64,000 nt of DNA. It comes from Methanoculleus thermophilus (lineage in GTDB: Archaea; Halobacteriota; Methanomicrobia; Methanomicrobiales; Methanoculleaceae). This document shows positions 49,349-59,651 of this stretch, in pieces (positions within the stretch are counted from its first letter, which is position 1; every line of letters starts with the position of its first letter). The stretch covers positions 1 to 64,000 of the forward strand of contig NZ_BCNX01000007.1 in NCBI RefSeq assembly GCF_001571405.1. The letters are read 5' to 3'. The position numbers were made by a program, and so were the translations under genes. The notes beneath the pieces are model-generated. The model made no database searches. It worked only from the letters and a program-made list of their open reading frames with translations, and was not told the DNA's origin.

Positions 49349-49783
49349 TTACCCATCCTCTCCCACGACGTCGAACCAGACCGGGTCAGGGCAGTCCGGC
49401 CGGCCGCCATAGTTGATGGTGATCTCCTCGTCTTTCTCTATGGTCCGATGTGCATAGATGCGGATCTCCCCCCGGGGAACGTCGCAGATATGATCTGCAT
49501 TTGCATGGTAGGAGTGATTGTAGAGAGACCCATAACCCAGCGCCACGGCGGCAAGTTCCGGGTCTTTCCCCCAGGCAAAGTAGTAGTCAAAGAGGCGCGT
49601 TTGGTCAAGGAGTTTCTGATCATCTGCTCCACCAAGCACGATCACCGGGCAGACCTCGATCAGCTCACCGGCATCAATCCTCCTGCGGGCGAAGACGCCC
49701 CGTCCACGACCGCTCGACGAGCTGATATACACGGAATCGGAAGGGTAGATAGCCCAGCCCATCTCTGCAACATTATCCGTCAT
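49349..49783 (-). CDS. SET-domain protein
   Basis: 144 residues covering a compact SET domain: SGRGRGVFARRRIDAGELIEV, GYGSLYNHSYHANADH (the NHS core) and EITINYGG. SET proteins transfer methyl groups from SAM to protein lysines. The small size and NHSYxAN core match stand-alone prokaryotic SET proteins, which may methylate chromatin or ribosomal proteins. The start may be at 49783 or at the internal ATG at 49762. It is convergent with no close partner. Confidence 0.82.
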   Translation of the reverse strand: MTDNVAEMGWAIYPSDSVYISSSSGRGRGVFARRRIDAGELIEVCPVIVLGGADDQKLLDQTRLFDYYFAWGKDPELAAVALGYGSLYNHSYHANADHICDVPRGEIRIYAHRTIEKDEEITINYGGRPDCPDPVWFDVVGEDG

Positions 49784-52163: not shown

Positions 52164-52493
52164 ATAATTCAACCATGCAGATAATCTGCACACATACAGA
52201 CTACCTGCCTGCATATATAAGTGCGTCTCATAAAACCCAACAACGATCTGCAACTTCGGTGCACCCATCCATGCAGTATCCGCGGCCCCGGCGCGTGGGG
52301 GACATCTGTAGAATGAAAGAACAGCGTAGTTCGGGCATTTCCACGGATGGAGAAAGTTGCGGCATAACCCTTTTATCGATACTATCCTACCGAATGATCA
52401 TCCAGATATGGCACACGTTAAACCATTTCTCTTTTACAACCGAACGAATTGCTATTTCCTCCCAGATTATGGGAACAGGGTGAGTGGCCCAGC

Positions 52494-54479
52494 ATGACAG
52501 ACGATATTCACACGGACGAACCCCCGGATAGTAGACAGAAGAATAACCACAGACGGACAATTGGTCCTGTCCCGAATCTTGAAGAGCACGTGAAACCCGA
52601 CTGGTGGAAGGGTATCTTCAACCATCTCTACTTAAAGACCGATGGCGACGTCGTTGACGACCAGCGGATCACCAGCAGCGAGATTGATAGAATAATAGAG
52701 ATCCTGCATCTGGAGCCGGATCAGAAGATCCTCGACCTCTGTTGCGGCCAGGGAAGACACACGCTCGAACTCGCGCGCAGGGGCTATAACGCCGAAGGTC
52801 TCGACCAATCGCACTACCTGATCCAGCGGGCCCGGTCGACTGCAAAGAAGGAGGGGCTCTCTGTCAGATTCCGTGAGGGAGATGCGCGCCGGCTGCCGTA
52901 TCGCACCGACACCTACGACGTCGTCCTTGTTCTCGGGAACAGTTTTGGTTACCTGGACTCTGTCGAGGAAGACCTGCGGATTCTTACTGAGTTGCGGCGC
53001 ATCCTCAAACCATGGGGGCGAGTGCTTCTGGATGTGGCCGACGGCGAGTACTTAAAAGAGCATTTCCAGCCGAGGTCATGGGAGTGGATCGACCGTACGA
53101 TGTTCGTCTGCCGCGAACGGTCGCTCTCGCTCGATGCCCAGCGCCTGATATCCAGAGAGGTGATCACCGACGTCAACAAGGGCGTCGTAGCCGACCAGTT
53201 CTATGCCGAGCGCCTTTACACCCCCGACGCGCTCCGGCGGCTCCTGGAACGGGCAGGATTCTCCTCCATCACCTTCCACGAGATCGCCACGGAATCGCAG
53301 CGGAACCAGGACCTCGGCATGATGGAGCGCCGCTATATCGTCACCGCGGTCACAAGGAAAGAGTGGTCGTCAACGAAGACGAGAGGGCAGAAGAAGGCAA
53401 AGAACGTCGTGGTGCTGCTGGGCGACCCGTCCAGACCCGACGCGTTGAAACCCTCCTGCACCTTCGATGATGACGACTTCTACACCATCGACCAGATGAA
53501 GGCGGCTCTCCGGGAGCTTCCGGGATACCGATTCACGTACCTCTCCCGGCACGAGACCATGCTCCAGGATCTCACGAGACTGAAAGGGAAGATCGATTAC
53601 GTCTTCAATCTCTGCGATGAAGGCTTCAACAACGACCCCCGAAAAGAACTTCATGTGCCGGCACTTCTTGAGATGCTCGGTATACCGTATACGGGCTCCG
53701 GGCCGCAAGCGCTTGCGTTCTGCTACGATAAGTCGCTTGTACACGGTGTCGCAAGAGAGATGAGGATCCCGGTGCCGGACTCCTGCTTCATCACCCCGGG
53801 TGACCGGACTTACGATATCGGGATAAATTTCCCGGTGATCGTCAAGCCGAACGAAGGAGATTCCTCATACGGCATCACCCAAAAGAGCATCGCCCATTCC
53901 GTTGAAGAGCTCGCCGACATCATCAACTCACTGCGGGCGAAGATGGGATACGACCATTCACTTCTTATCGAGGAGTTCCTTACTGGAAAGGATATCAGTG
54001 TAGGGATCATCGGGAACCCTCCGGGATGCTGCACAGTACTGCCTATTACAGAAGAGGACTACTCCGCACTGCCTCCGGATCTTCCCAGGATCTGCGGCTA
54101 TGAAGCAAAGTGGCTCCCTGACTCGCCGTATGGGATGATCGTCTCACGGCCTGCAGAACTTCCGGAAGAGACCGAGAAAGCGATTGTGCGGTGCTGCATC
54201 GCCCTCTTTGAACGCCTGAAGTGCCGTGACTACTGCCGGTTCGACTGGCGTCTTGACGAACACGGCAATCCGAAACTTCTCGAGGTCAACCCGAATCCCG
54301 GCTGGTGCTGGGACGGGCATCTCGCAAAGATGGCAAAATATGCGGGCATATCATACCCCGAGATGCTCGGCCGGATCCTCAAAGCTGCAGAGGAACGGTT
54401 CGGGATGGATCATGAGAAGGTGGCACAAGAGGGCGATAAGGAGACTCTCTCGCTCGATCTCGACCGTGAGGAGGCCTGA
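52494..54479 (+). CDS. Fusion: SAM methyltransferase and D-Ala-D-Ala-ligase-like ATP-grasp enzyme
   Basis: 661 residues from MTDDIHTDEP, with GGGTGAG 8 nt upstream; the frame extends to 52449. Residues ~55-285 are a class I methyltransferase with motif I ILDLCCGQGRHT (79-90), VRFREGDARRLP and LKPWGRVLLDVADG. Residues ~305-650 are a D-Ala-D-Ala-ligase-like ATP-grasp: VFNLCDEGF, GIPYTGSGPQALAFCYDK, PVIVKPNEGDSSYGITQKS, LIEEFLTGKDISVGI, and LLEVNPNPGW (metal site). It would ligate a carboxylate to an amine and methylate the same or a related molecule. Methanogens have no murein, so the substrate is unknown. Confidence 0.88.
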   Translation: MTDDIHTDEPPDSRQKNNHRRTIGPVPNLEEHVKPDWWKGIFNHLYLKTDGDVVDDQRITSSEIDRIIEILHLEPDQKILDLCCGQGRHTLELARRGYNAEGLDQSHYLIQRARSTAKKEGLSVRFREGDARRLPYRTDTYDVVLVLGNSFGYLDSVEEDLRILTELRRILKPWGRVLLDVADGEYLKEHFQPRSWEWIDRTMFVCRERSLSLDAQRLISREVITDVNKGVVADQFYAERLYTPDALRRLLERAGFSSITFHEIATESQRNQDLGMMERRYIVTAVTRKEWSSTKTRGQKKAKNVVVLLGDPSRPDALKPSCTFDDDDFYTIDQMKAALRELPGYRFTYLSRHETMLQDLTRLKGKIDYVFNLCDEGFNNDPRKELHVPALLEMLGIPYTGSGPQALAFCYDKSLVHGVAREMRIPVPDSCFITPGDRTYDIGINFPVIVKPNEGDSSYGITQKSIAHSVEELADIINSLRAKMGYDHSLLIEEFLTGKDISVGIIGNPPGCCTVLPITEEDYSALPPDLPRICGYEAKWLPDSPYGMIVSRPAELPEETEKAIVRCCIALFERLKCRDYCRFDWRLDEHGNPKLLEVNPNPGWCWDGHLAKMAKYAGISYPEMLGRILKAAEERFGMDHEKVAQEGDKETLSLDLDREEA

Positions 54480-54888: not shown

Positions 54889-55803
54889 ATGGCCGATGAA
54901 TCGTATCGGACCGCGACGGTCCAGGGCAGGGAGGTCCCCTACGATCCAGAGCAACTGCGCAAGATCAGCGAGCACCCCTGTTACTCCGACAAGGCATGCC
55001 ACGCCTTTGGGCGGTGCCACTTGCCCGTCGCTCCGAAGTGCAATATCCAGTGTAACTACTGTATCCGGGACTTCGACTGCGTGAACGAGAGCCGGCCGGG
55101 CGTAACAAGCAGAGTCCTCTCCCCCGAGGAGGCGCTGGAACTCACGAGAAACGTCATCAAGGAACACCCGTATGTAAAAGTGATCGGCATCGCAGGGCCG
55201 GGCGAGCCGCTCGCAAACCCCGAGACGTTTGAGACACTGCGGCTGGTCCACGAGGAGTTCCCACATCTGATCATGTGCATCAGCACAAACGGTCTTGTGC
55301 TCCCGGAGTCGATCGAGGAACTCGCCAAATACGACGTCGGGAACGTTACGGTCACGCTCAACGCGATCGACCCCGCAATCGGCGAGAAGATCTACTCCTG
55401 GGTCGATTACAAGGGAAAGAAGTATTACGGGCGGGAAGCAGCCGAACTCCTCCTCTCTCAGCAACTGAAGGGGATCGAGATGGCGGTTGCAAAGAAGATG
55501 TTTGTCAAGATTAACACCGTCTACATCCCCGGAATCAACGATGAGCATATCCCCGAGATTGCAAAGAAGGTCGGAGAGATGGGGGCGTTCACGTTCAACG
55601 TCATACCGCTCATCCCGCAGTATAAGTTTGCCGGGATCACGCCGCCAACACCAAAAGAGAAGCGGGAGATGCAGGACCGGTGCGCTCCGTATATCAAGCA
55701 GATGCGCCACTGCGCGCGCTGCCGGGCGGATGCCATCGGAAGACTCGGCCAGGACATTCAGTCCTGTGTCTACCAGCAGATGAAGAATGAGAAGGCAGAA
55801 TAA
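54889..55803 (+). CDS. nifB: NifB-type radical SAM protein (short archaeal form)
   Basis: 304 residues with HPCYSDKACHAFGRCHLPVA, the radical-SAM cluster C51-x3-C55-x2-C58 (CNIQCNYC) and DCVNESRPGVTS. The distinctive NifB sequence carries ligands for the extra iron-sulfur clusters, including the C-terminal HCARCRADAIGRLGQD. It lacks the NifX-like domain, as archaeal NifB does. NifB builds the NifB-co core of nitrogenase cofactor. No other nif genes are in view, so nitrogen fixation is unproven for this organism. Confidence 0.9.
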   Translation: MADESYRTATVQGREVPYDPEQLRKISEHPCYSDKACHAFGRCHLPVAPKCNIQCNYCIRDFDCVNESRPGVTSRVLSPEEALELTRNVIKEHPYVKVIGIAGPGEPLANPETFETLRLVHEEFPHLIMCISTNGLVLPESIEELAKYDVGNVTVTLNAIDPAIGEKIYSWVDYKGKKYYGREAAELLLSQQLKGIEMAVAKKMFVKINTVYIPGINDEHIPEIAKKVGEMGAFTFNVIPLIPQYKFAGITPPTPKEKREMQDRCAPYIKQMRHCARCRADAIGRLGQDIQSCVYQQMKNEKAE

Positions 55804-57219: not shown

Positions 57220-57939
57220 TTATTGTTCCAATCCGGTGAAACTCGCGATAAACTCGTTATCCCGCATCGAAAGCACCTCCTCCGGCGTTCCCAGGGCCGC
57301 CACCCTTCCCTCCTCGATGAGGCAGACACGGTCGCCGAGTTCGAGAAGATCACGGAGATTGTGAGTGACGACGATGCAGGGGATGCCGGCGTTCCGGAGA
57401 CGGTCGCGAAGTTCTTTCCGCATCGCTCCTTGAGCCCGCATATCGACGGCGGCGAGCGGTTCATCGAGGAGGAGGAGTTCGGGATCGAGCACCAGCGCCC
57501 GGGCGAGGGCAACTCGCTGCCGCTGCCCACCCGAAAGCCTGGCGACGTTGACGTCCGAAAGATCGGCAAGGTTCATCGAGCGGAGCTGCTCCGCTACGAC
57601 TCTGGCTATCTCGGCTTTGGGGACCTTTCTGCACCGTAGACCGAACGCCACATTCTCAAAGACGGTCATGTGCGGGAAGAGGGCGTAGGACTGGAAGAGG
57701 TGGCCGATATTTCGGTTCTCGGCGGGGATATCGATCCGCTCTTCATCCGAGTAGAGTGTCCGGTCTCCGAGAACGATCTTTCCACTCTTGGGGGTGAGGA
57801 TGCCTGAGATCAGGTTCAGTACCGTGGACTTGCCCGCTCCGTTCTCGCCGATAAGGACGAGGGTTTCACCGGGTTGGACTGAGAACGCGACGTCGAGGGT
57901 AAAGTCCCGGAGGTGTCTTGTGACGTGGACGGAAAGCAT
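57220..57939 (-). CDS. modC: Molybdate ABC transporter, ATPase
   Basis: 239 residues: Walker A GENGAGKST (31-39), Q-loop, signature LSGGQRQR (135-142), Walker B LLLLDEP (155-161). ATG overlaps the permease stop (TGATG), with AGGAGG upstream. It lacks the C-terminal molybdate-sensing Mop domain of E. coli ModC, as do many archaeal versions. A longer frame to 58173 is only permease read in another frame. Confidence 0.88.
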   Translation of the reverse strand: MLSVHVTRHLRDFTLDVAFSVQPGETLVLIGENGAGKSTVLNLISGILTPKSGKIVLGDRTLYSDEERIDIPAENRNIGHLFQSYALFPHMTVFENVAFGLRCRKVPKAEIARVVAEQLRSMNLADLSDVNVARLSGGQRQRVALARALVLDPELLLLDEPLAAVDMRAQGAMRKELRDRLRNAGIPCIVVTHNLRDLLELGDRVCLIEEGRVAALGTPEEVLSMRDNEFIASFTGLEQ

Positions 57940-58781
57940 CAGTACCTCCTCCTGGCGGCGATCTTCACCGCGGCAATCACCGCAAACGATATCATCACGA
58001 GGATGATGGCAAGGCTGATTGCGGCGTCGAGATCGCCCTGCATGGTCGTATAGATAGCAAGCGGCATCGTCTGGGTCCTGCCCTGGAAGTTCCCGGCGAA
58101 CATGATCGTGGCGCCGAACTCTCCAAGCGCTCGGGCGAAGGAGAGGATTGCCCCGGAGACGAGCCCGCCCCACGCGAGTGGAATGGTGATCCGGAAGGCG
58201 ACGGTCGCGGGCGATGCTCCGAGGGTTCGCGCAGCATCCTCGTAGAGGCGGTCGACCGCTTCGAAACTTGCTTTCGCCTGCCGGATGTAAAACGGCGAGG
58301 CGACAAAGACCTGAGCAATTACGACCGCAAGCGTGGTGAAGGCGATATGGATGCCGAAGATATCGAGGTACTGCCCGATAACTCCACGGCGTCCGAACGC
58401 CATCAGCAGCGCAATGCCCGCCACCGCTGGCGGGAGGACTATAGGGAGATCAGTGAGGGTGTCGACCAGTTCCCTGCCGCGGTACTCCCGCCGGGCGTTC
58501 ACCAGGGCAAGCGGCGTCCCGAAGAGGACAACGATCGCCGTGCTCACCGCCGCGGTGATGAGGGAGAGCGCGAGAGCGTCGAGCACCACCGGTTCGCCGA
58601 GCGAGCGGAGGAACGCCTCCGGCGATATGCGCAGGAAGAGCGAGACTACCGGCAGCGTGATGAAGAGGAGAAAGATCCCAAGGAGGACGGCAGTGAGGAG
58701 GGCAAGTGTCACCCTCCCAAACCGCGTCCGGCTGCCGGAGGCGAAGGCCTCACGCTCAGGCAGGGATCGGGTCAAATCCAT
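57939..58781 (-). CDS. modB: Molybdate ABC transporter, permease
   Basis: 280 residues with six helices and the binding-protein-dependent EAA loop: VDRLYEDAARTLGASPATVA. FTTLAVVIAQVFVASPFYIRQA is typical of ModB/WtpB. It overlaps modA by 26 nt and modC by 1 nt, so the three form a tight operon. Confidence 0.9.
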   Translation of the reverse strand: MDLTRSLPEREAFASGSRTRFGRVTLALLTAVLLGIFLLFITLPVVSLFLRISPEAFLRSLGEPVVLDALALSLITAAVSTAIVVLFGTPLALVNARREYRGRELVDTLTDLPIVLPPAVAGIALLMAFGRRGVIGQYLDIFGIHIAFTTLAVVIAQVFVASPFYIRQAKASFEAVDRLYEDAARTLGASPATVAFRITIPLAWGGLVSGAILSFARALGEFGATIMFAGNFQGRTQTMPLAIYTTMQGDLDAAISLAIILVMISFAVIAAVKIAARRRY

Positions 58782-59574
58782 ACTCAGTCAGAATGGCGCT
58801 GCCGTCCGGGCCCCGGACGAATGCTATGAATGCCTCTGCCTCGGCCTTGTTCGGCGACTCCGCAAGGATACCGAGCGGATAGGTTGCCTTGACGTTGTAC
58901 ACGGCCGGGATCTCGATCCGCATCACTTTCTCGAGGTCGTCCTTGGAGACGTCCGACTTGTAGACGATCGCCGCGTCCGCCTCACCGAGCGCGAGCTTGG
59001 GCACCACGGAGCTCACCGCCGTCTCCTCGGAGATAACGTTTGCCATCACGGCGTCCCGGTATGCCGGGCCATATGCGGAGTCTGCAGCCAGTTTATCGAG
59101 CATCTGCCGGGTGTAGTCCCCGAAGGGGACGTCCTTTGTGCCGATGACGAGTTTTACACCAGATTTGTTCAGGTCGGCAAGACCCGTGACCCCTGCCGGG
59201 TTGTCGACCGGGACGATCAGGGCGAGATTGTTCTCAAGGAACGGTGTCACGGTGCTGTTCACCATGAACCCGCCGTCCTGGAGGGCCTGCATGTGCTTTG
59301 TGCTCGCAGAGACAAAGATATCCACGTTCGCCCCCTGTTCGATCTGGGTGCGGAGCGCCTGTGAGCCGTCGAATACAAACTCGACCTTGACGTTCTCGTT
59401 CTGCGCCTCGTAGGCTCTGCCGATATCCGTGAAGGCTCCTGTGAGCGATGCGGCCGTAAAGACAGTCAGGGTCGTCTGCTCGGGTGCGGAGGTGGTCGTA
59501 CACCCGGCGACCAGGAGACCGGCGACCATCAGCAGAGATATGGCAGCAAGAGCTACCCGGGATGTTCTTATCAT
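58756..59574 (-). CDS. modA: Molybdate-binding lipoprotein
   Basis: 272 residues from MIRTSRVALAA; the frame extends to 59607. The lipobox LLVAGC gives a lipid-anchored mature protein at Cys25. The core LTVFTAASLTGAFTDIGRAY, VDIFVSAST, ISEETAVSSVVPKLALGEADAAIVYKSDV and YPLGILA match ModA (AAS loop) rather than the longer WtpA. It captures molybdate/tungstate for formylmethanofuran dehydrogenase and possibly nitrogenase. Confidence 0.88.
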   Translation of the reverse strand: MIRTSRVALAAISLLMVAGLLVAGCTTTSAPEQTTLTVFTAASLTGAFTDIGRAYEAQNENVKVEFVFDGSQALRTQIEQGANVDIFVSASTKHMQALQDGGFMVNSTVTPFLENNLALIVPVDNPAGVTGLADLNKSGVKLVIGTKDVPFGDYTRQMLDKLAADSAYGPAYRDAVMANVISEETAVSSVVPKLALGEADAAIVYKSDVSKDDLEKVMRIEIPAVYNVKATYPLGILAESPNKAEAEAFIAFVRGPDGSAILTEYGFDPIPA

Positions 59575-59603
59575 ATGTGCATCACTCGTAAGAGAATTGC
59601 GGC

Positions 59604-59651
59604 CCAATATATTTAATTTAGCTGATTTAAGCCCAAATTAACGAGATTTGG
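59604..59651 (-). promoter_or_regulatory. modABC promoter and inverted repeat
   Basis: Minus-strand TATA (AAATTAAATATATTGG) gives a start near 59584. Upstream lies CCAAAT-n7-ATTTGG (59633-59651), a plausible regulator site. Confidence 0.4.

Follow-up and report, generated by a model that had tools for sequence, protein, structure and literature searches.

NmbA is a methyltransferase that acts on the cysteine nitrogen of bacillithiol, and N-methyl-bacillithiol is present in anaerobic Chlorobiota; archaea are reported to be without the genes of the bacillithiol pathway (PMC12719100). Even in archaea that have pseudomurein, a convincing orthologue of the D-Ala-D-Ala ligases (Ddl; PF07478, NF002378/TIGR01205) was not found in a recent study (PMC11915815). 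The gene described here, within a 64,000-nucleotide stretch of Methanoculleus thermophilus DNA (the window), encodes a methyltransferase that resembles NmbA and a Ddl-like ATP-grasp ligase in one polypeptide. Both domain types are known; the conserved fused family appears to be undescribed. A model covering the fusion as a unit was not found in Pfam, NCBIfam or PADLOC, nor a description of a methyltransferase-ATP-grasp fusion in the open, as distinct from the subscription, literature. The architecture goes unmentioned in the accessible text of papers on archaeal fusions, pseudomurein ligases and archaeal thiols.

The fused gene and its two domains

The initial annotation described a methyltransferase joined to a D-Ala-D-Ala-ligase-like ATP-grasp enzyme, and this is borne out by a single intact ORF of 661 residues (Table 1) with Pfam matches far above cut-off on both halves, to methyltransferase families at residues ~64-257 (Methyltransf_25, E 7e-20) and to Dala_Dala_lig_C at residues 444-629 (E 7e-27). 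The ORF has an ATG start, a TGA stop and no internal stops. There is an in-frame TTG upstream, at 52449, and the ATG at 52494 is the supported start because Methanoculleus relatives begin at the same ATG with a shared 'MTD-HTDEPPDS' sequence. The host genome (2.22 Mb, 99% complete) has a single copy. An AlphaFold model of the full protein (mean pLDDT 82, pTM 0.56) has two confidently predicted domains, low confidence in the tails (residues 1-20 and 641-661) and, at this pTM, an uncertain relative orientation of the domains; the methyltransferase half modelled alone reaches pLDDT 91 and pTM 0.89. Relative to other Methanoculleus, dN/dS is ~0.08-0.13 in both halves, and both are under purifying selection. 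These values, and the full-length matches, in unchanged domain order, of the 80 best relatives from other assemblies, argue that the fusion is neither an assembly artefact nor due to chance.

Table 1. Positions of the fusion gene, its domains and its motifs in the window
Feature	Residues	Position	Strand	Basis or remarks
Fusion gene, methyltransferase and Ddl-like ATP-grasp ligase	661 aa	52494..54479	+	ORF call, Pfam
Class I SAM-dependent methyltransferase domain, N-terminal	21-290	52554..53363	+	Pfam, AlphaFold pLDDT 91, fold neighbours
SAM-binding motif I, DLCCGQGRHT	81-90	52734..52763	+	D81, G85, G87 and R88 invariant in 48 fusions
Methyltransferase motif NSFGY	149-153	52938..52952	+	nearly invariant; SFGY common to NmbA 9ri2
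Family motif RSWEW, putative cap/substrate region	194-198	53073..53087	+	invariant or nearly so
Family motif QDLGMME, end of methyltransferase domain	272-278	53307..53327	+	invariant or nearly so
Interdomain linker	~292-302	53367..53399	+	low model confidence at 294-300; variable in alignment
D-Ala-D-Ala-ligase-like ATP-grasp domain, C-terminal	303-640	53400..54413	+	Pfam, PDB sequence and fold matches to Ddl
ATP-binding motif PVIVKPNEGDSSYG with K451 (DdlB K144)		53832..53873	+	K451 invariant
Omega-loop EAKW, K539 (DdlB K215) and W540 replacing DdlB Y216		54102..54113	+	invariant or nearly so
Mg2+/acyl-phosphate site RFDW...LLEVNPNPGWCWDGH		54237..54320	+	R582, D584, E597, N599 and G603 kept

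The key motifs to which the initial annotation had drawn attention are present in both halves and nearly invariant across ~77 fusions. In the N-terminal half, D81, G85, G87 and the acidic residue of beta strand 2, D104, are invariant, as in class I SAM methyltransferases, and the fold agrees; CRERSL is a further, nearly invariant, family-specific motif. Among solved structures, the best sequence match of the METHYLTRANSFERASE half is NmbA (PDB 9RI2) with an E value of 1e-25, the runner-up having 1e-15. The two proteins have GRH, SFGY, F-PR and ER-LS motifs in common and, in the model, a sheet-type cap, but are only 22-24% identical in a fold alignment, and the fusion, unlike NmbA, carries a ligase and occurs in archaea. 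NmbA forms a single row on a branch of length 3.66 in the methyltransferase tree. The fold neighbours are CypM, CcbJ, GSMT, NmbA, TylM1 and several C-methyltransferases of small natural products. Glycine/sarcosine and CypM-type peptide N-methyltransferases share the fold and N-methylate small molecules or peptides; they are, however, only ~19-22% identical to the fusion and have no ligase, and the fusion falls below their curated cut-offs. The match to NmbA and the fold neighbours together favour a small molecule or peptide as the acceptor and probably a nitrogen as the acceptor atom, an atom that this fold predicts poorly, as the neighbours PsmD/SgMT are C-methyltransferases.

The C-terminal half matches Ddl and Van ligases best, both among curated sequences and by fold. 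Residues were compared with an E. coli DdlB sequence whose length and active-site positions agree with the published numbering. The equivalents of DdlB K97, K144, E180, K215, R255, D257, E270, N272 and G276 are present in all 60 relatives compared, except that one of them has D at E270, so that the loss of ATP-grasp catalytic residues in relatives, which by the initial annotation would have refuted it, is not observed. Across the fusion family, K413, K451, E493, K539, R582, D584, E597 and N599 are retained, as befits a member of the carboxylate-amine ATP-grasp superfamily. In the same 60 aligned relatives, DdlB E15 has no conserved counterpart, and Y216, S281 and L282 are invariantly replaced by W540, G608 and H609, the last two within the Mg2+/acyl-phosphate site. 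Van-type ligases have H at the position of Y216. The family has its own signatures, an invariant NPNPGWCWDGH block and an N-terminal F-DDD--T motif, and scores 131 bits against the 243-bit cut-off of NCBIfam model NF002378, the other models shown being likewise below cut-off. With the Ddl catalytic residues kept and the D-Ala residues invariantly exchanged, the acyl-phosphate machinery appears intact and the substrate pocket different but fixed. The ligase half thus shares the fold and all of the ATP, Mg2+ and acyl-phosphate residues of Ddl but differs in the invariant set at the D-Ala site, in its scores and in forming a separate, long-branched clade. Because another invariant set replaces the D-Ala-binding residues, it is, as judged from its sequence, a Ddl-like carboxylate-amine ligase and not a D-Ala-D-Ala ligase. 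The lack of peptidoglycan in the host, which had made the gene seem surprising, is for the same reasons irrelevant.

Distribution and phylogeny of the family

When one genome per bacterial or archaeal species was scanned, at least 586 relatives were found, some of which are possibly not fusions. The best 80 of these are all full-length fusions with the same domain order and 63-86% identity; the architecture is therefore not an oddity of one organism, nor are its homologues confined to two separate enzymes. These 80 span the Methanomicrobiales, Asgard archaea and some twenty bacterial phyla. Archaeal carriers among them include Methanoculleus, other Methanomicrobiales, Jordarchaeia, Freyarchaeota, Lokiarchaeota, Altiarchaeota and Methanophagales, and bacterial carriers include Planctomycetes, Aminicenantes, Atribacteria, Thermotogota, Dehalococcoidia, Deltaproteobacteria, Zixibacteria, Cloacimonadota, Acidobacteria and Nitrospirae. 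Many are metagenome bins labelled by their records, so single placements may be wrong; Methanoculleus records that are not metagenome-assembled, for example M. chikugoensis and MH98A, also have the fusion. The distribution is patchy, with the fusion in 56 of 185 Methanomicrobiales genomes, 36 of 180 genomes of the Asgard phylum (counting matches better than 1e-200), and 7 of 247 and 6 of 244 genomes of the deltaproteobacterial and planctomycete groups, respectively. Methanoculleus, Lokiarchaeal and distant bacterial copies share 60-68% identity, high for a metabolic enzyme that is not a housekeeping protein, which argues for strong constraint and repeated transfer between domains.

In the tree of the ATP-grasp half, the fusions lie on one side of a single branch, with archaea and bacteria intermixed, and a stem of 1.55 changes per column separates them from most solo Ddl-like ligases. 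With a support of 69 for that branch their monophyly is not firmly shown; the topology would fit a single fusion event followed by transfer across domains. A methyltransferase-only copy (L190/L123) is nested within the fusion clade of the methyltransferase tree, and so looks like a case of secondary ligase loss. Solo ATP-grasps related to the ligase half include those on rhizobial plasmids (H1-H20; 27-34% identity), whose context is uninformative, and L204, the nearest to the fusions in sequence motifs (40%), which keeps NPNP-W-DG and, by eye, adjoins an amidase-like gene.

Some genomes depart from the single intact gene. One Methanoculleus copy (G039:C1:1841818-1843789) is interrupted by an in-frame TGA or frame change near residue 110-118 and is possibly a pseudogene, and another Methanoculleus genome (G036) has no fusion match at E 1e-40. 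One member of the Methanomicrobiales (G103) has three copies (L153, L154 and L155), two scoring equally and one frameshifted; on a circular contig they would lie within ~45 kb, spanning the contig ends. A phage origin was considered and rejected, as phages gave partial, Ddl-type matches and no full-length match; so was a defence origin, as the PADLOC match, to mad2, covers only the methyltransferase core at residues 41-200, and a whole-protein match in a defence neighbourhood was not found.

Gene neighbours and related operons

No general conserved neighbour was found within ±6 kb of ~125 fusion loci. Most copies are solitary, and most apparent clusters are local synteny in Methanoculleus or Lokiarchaea. 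In the window, a radical SAM protein of NifB-like appearance (54889-55803, +) is directly downstream of the fusion, a set of molybdate-type ABC transporter genes for an ATPase, permease and binding protein is at 57220-59607 (-), both identified by eye, and a SET-domain gene is at 49349-49783 (-), 2.7 kb from the fusion on the opposite strand. SET-domain genes are near many Methanoculleus fusions and elsewhere only at two loci, with one small gene beside the fusion (L161:4566-7008) and two beside the methyltransferase-only copy (L190:4924-6642), and a general link was rejected. In several Asgard loci (L160, L162, L163, L165-L167, L169, L171 and L174) the fusion is linked to the gene for PAN, the proteasome-activating ATPase, an unusual operon partner.

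The partner that recurs between phyla is an AstE/AspA-like hydrolase, for which the nearest models are those of DoeB-type deacetylases. Its gene adjoins the fusion on the same strand, 3-69 bp away, in a TA06 bacterium (L045) and two Desulfobacterota (L062 and L085), and the three proteins are ~60% identical between phyla; a frame-broken copy follows the fusion in one of the Phycisphaerae (L072). Five Asgard genomes have the hydrolase, all among the 36 of 180 that carry the fusion (hypergeometric 2.5e-4, ignoring kinship; about three independent lineages), with the genes apart. It was found in none of 185 Methanomicrobiales genomes, including that of the window, in none of 247 genomes of the deltaproteobacterial group, 7 of which have the fusion, and in 2 of 71 in the order of L062, the second at a contig end where a neighbour cannot show. 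A second ATP-grasp is close to the fusion at L158 and L128, and an M32 carboxypeptidase is downstream at L033/L035. Amide hydrolases as recurrent partners are consistent with an enzyme whose product is an amide or peptide. A separate 719-residue protein (L062:9389-11548) combines a Ddl-like ATP-grasp with an M20 peptidase-like domain, so that a single chain holds a ligase and what is likely a hydrolase.

In Desulfobacterota, a sister clade of the fusion methyltransferase (40-42% identity) is unfused in every copy seen. In 6 genomes the gene adjoins one encoding a 455-470-residue protein with weak similarity to YheCD/GshB-like ATP-grasps, for which a PDB match was not found, and this gene generally has a DUF885 metallopeptidase gene next to it; the three form a conserved unit (L191, L132, L133, L192, L193 and L195). 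Here too a methyltransferase of this type is next to an ATP-grasp and a metallopeptidase, but the genes are separate and the ATP-grasp belongs to another family, so that there are two unrelated forms of association between this methyltransferase type and an ATP-grasp ligase. Another conserved Desulfobacterota operon (L131, L134 and L135) encodes an agmatinase and a pyruvoyl arginine decarboxylase, followed by two tandem Ddl-like ATP-grasps, a methyltransferase, glycosyltransferase-like proteins and a small membrane protein, with a deoxyhypusine-synthase-like gene confirmed in L131, and looks like an undescribed bacterial pathway to a polyamine conjugate. Its ATP-grasps are 33-39% identical to the ligase half and have a methyltransferase gene downstream, but they are unfused and on a distant branch, and the methyltransferase is weakly similar.

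Proposed function and alternatives

We consider it reasonably likely, with a probability of about 0.6, that the fusion is a biosynthetic enzyme with two active sites that makes an N-methylated small amide or peptide in two steps. Judging from the retained Ddl catalytic residues, the C-terminal ATP-grasp would use ATP and Mg2+ to convert a carboxylate to an acyl-phosphate, which an amine would attack to give an amide or peptide bond and ADP. Judging from its fold and closest relatives, the N-terminal domain would methylate the same small molecule with SAM as donor, most likely on a nitrogen. Fusion would hold the two steps together, so that one solitary gene could suffice to derive an N-methylated small amide or short peptide from common metabolites, and in some lineages the AstE/AspA-like metallo-amidase may complete or reverse the pathway. 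The initial annotation had suggested a protein that both methylates and forms an amide bond, giving a small peptide or amide, and the conservation of both sets of catalytic motifs makes this plausible; it had not foreseen that the family extends across domains, can have a hydrolase partner and is akin to NmbA-type N-methyltransferases. The invariant SAM motif, the retained ATP, Mg2+ and acyl-phosphate residues and purifying selection on both halves speak for the two-step enzyme, as do the match to NmbA, the fold neighbours, the unfused sister methyltransferase beside an ATP-grasp and the hydrolase association; the solitary state of most copies, the missing hydrolase in Methanomicrobiales, the poor prediction of the acceptor atom and the uncertain domain orientation speak against it.

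Two alternatives are specific versions of the same ligase-plus-N-methyltransferase chemistry. An enzyme that couples agmatine, putrescine or homospermidine with an amino acid and methylates the conjugate is suggested by a Zixibacteria locus (L054), where genes for a pyruvoyl arginine decarboxylase, a deoxyhypusine-synthase-like protein and an agmatinase are directly upstream on the same strand. The same trio precedes the tandem ATP-grasps of L131, and part of it those of L134 and L135; SpeD/SpeE-like genes, named by eye, are upstream in L085, and deoxyhypusine synthase or arginine decarboxylase is close by in some Lokiarchaea. We regard this reading as unlikely, as these are about three lineages among well over 100 loci, the tandem ATP-grasps are beyond the long stem and archaeal deoxyhypusine synthase is a housekeeping gene; polyamine genes, striking at L054, were rejected as a general neighbour, being roughly at chance level overall by a rough estimate. 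Rather unlikely, too, is an enzyme for a new N-methylated low-molecular-weight thiol, in which the ligase would join cysteine to a partner and the methyltransferase would act on the cysteine nitrogen in the manner of NmbA. No characterised protein is closer in sequence than NmbA, and anaerobic Chlorobiota contain N-methyl-bacillithiol (PMC12719100), but the similarity is modest, the NmbA branch very long, bacillithiol genes are reported missing in archaea (PMC12719100) and no thiol genes were seen next to the fusion.

That proteins instead receive an amino acid or tag from the ATP-grasp, with capping by the methyltransferase, would suit the position of the fusion just 5' of PAN in about nine Lokiarchaeal genomes, on the same strand and mostly 5-43 bp away, and the SET-domain genes at L161 and L190. 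Both links are lineage-restricted, the methyltransferase fold and its closest relatives have small-molecule or peptide substrates, and Ddl-like active sites are small and closed, all of which make this reading improbable. A true D-Ala-D-Ala (or D-Ala-D-Lac/Ser) ligase, gained with a methyltransferase and serving a cell-wall-like polymer, would account for Ddl and Van ligases being the top curated matches, but is very improbable given the scores below the Ddl cut-offs, the unconserved E15, the three replacements in all relatives, the clustering of DdlB with solo Ddl-like proteins apart from the fusions in the tree and the reported lack of a convincing Ddl orthologue where pseudomurein is made.

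If the fusion is a two-step enzyme for an N-methylated amide or peptide, a further, more tentative proposal is that it is a horizontally mobile single gene that makes an undiscovered compound of this kind from start to finish, with the AstE-type hydrolase as an optional off-switch. The product might be an osmolyte, a redox or metal-handling compound or a polyamine conjugate, in many archaea and bacteria mostly known from anoxic habitats. As cultured Methanoculleus carry the fusion, metabolomics or heterologous expression would be a feasible test, and the product could prove to be a widespread, so far undiscovered metabolite.
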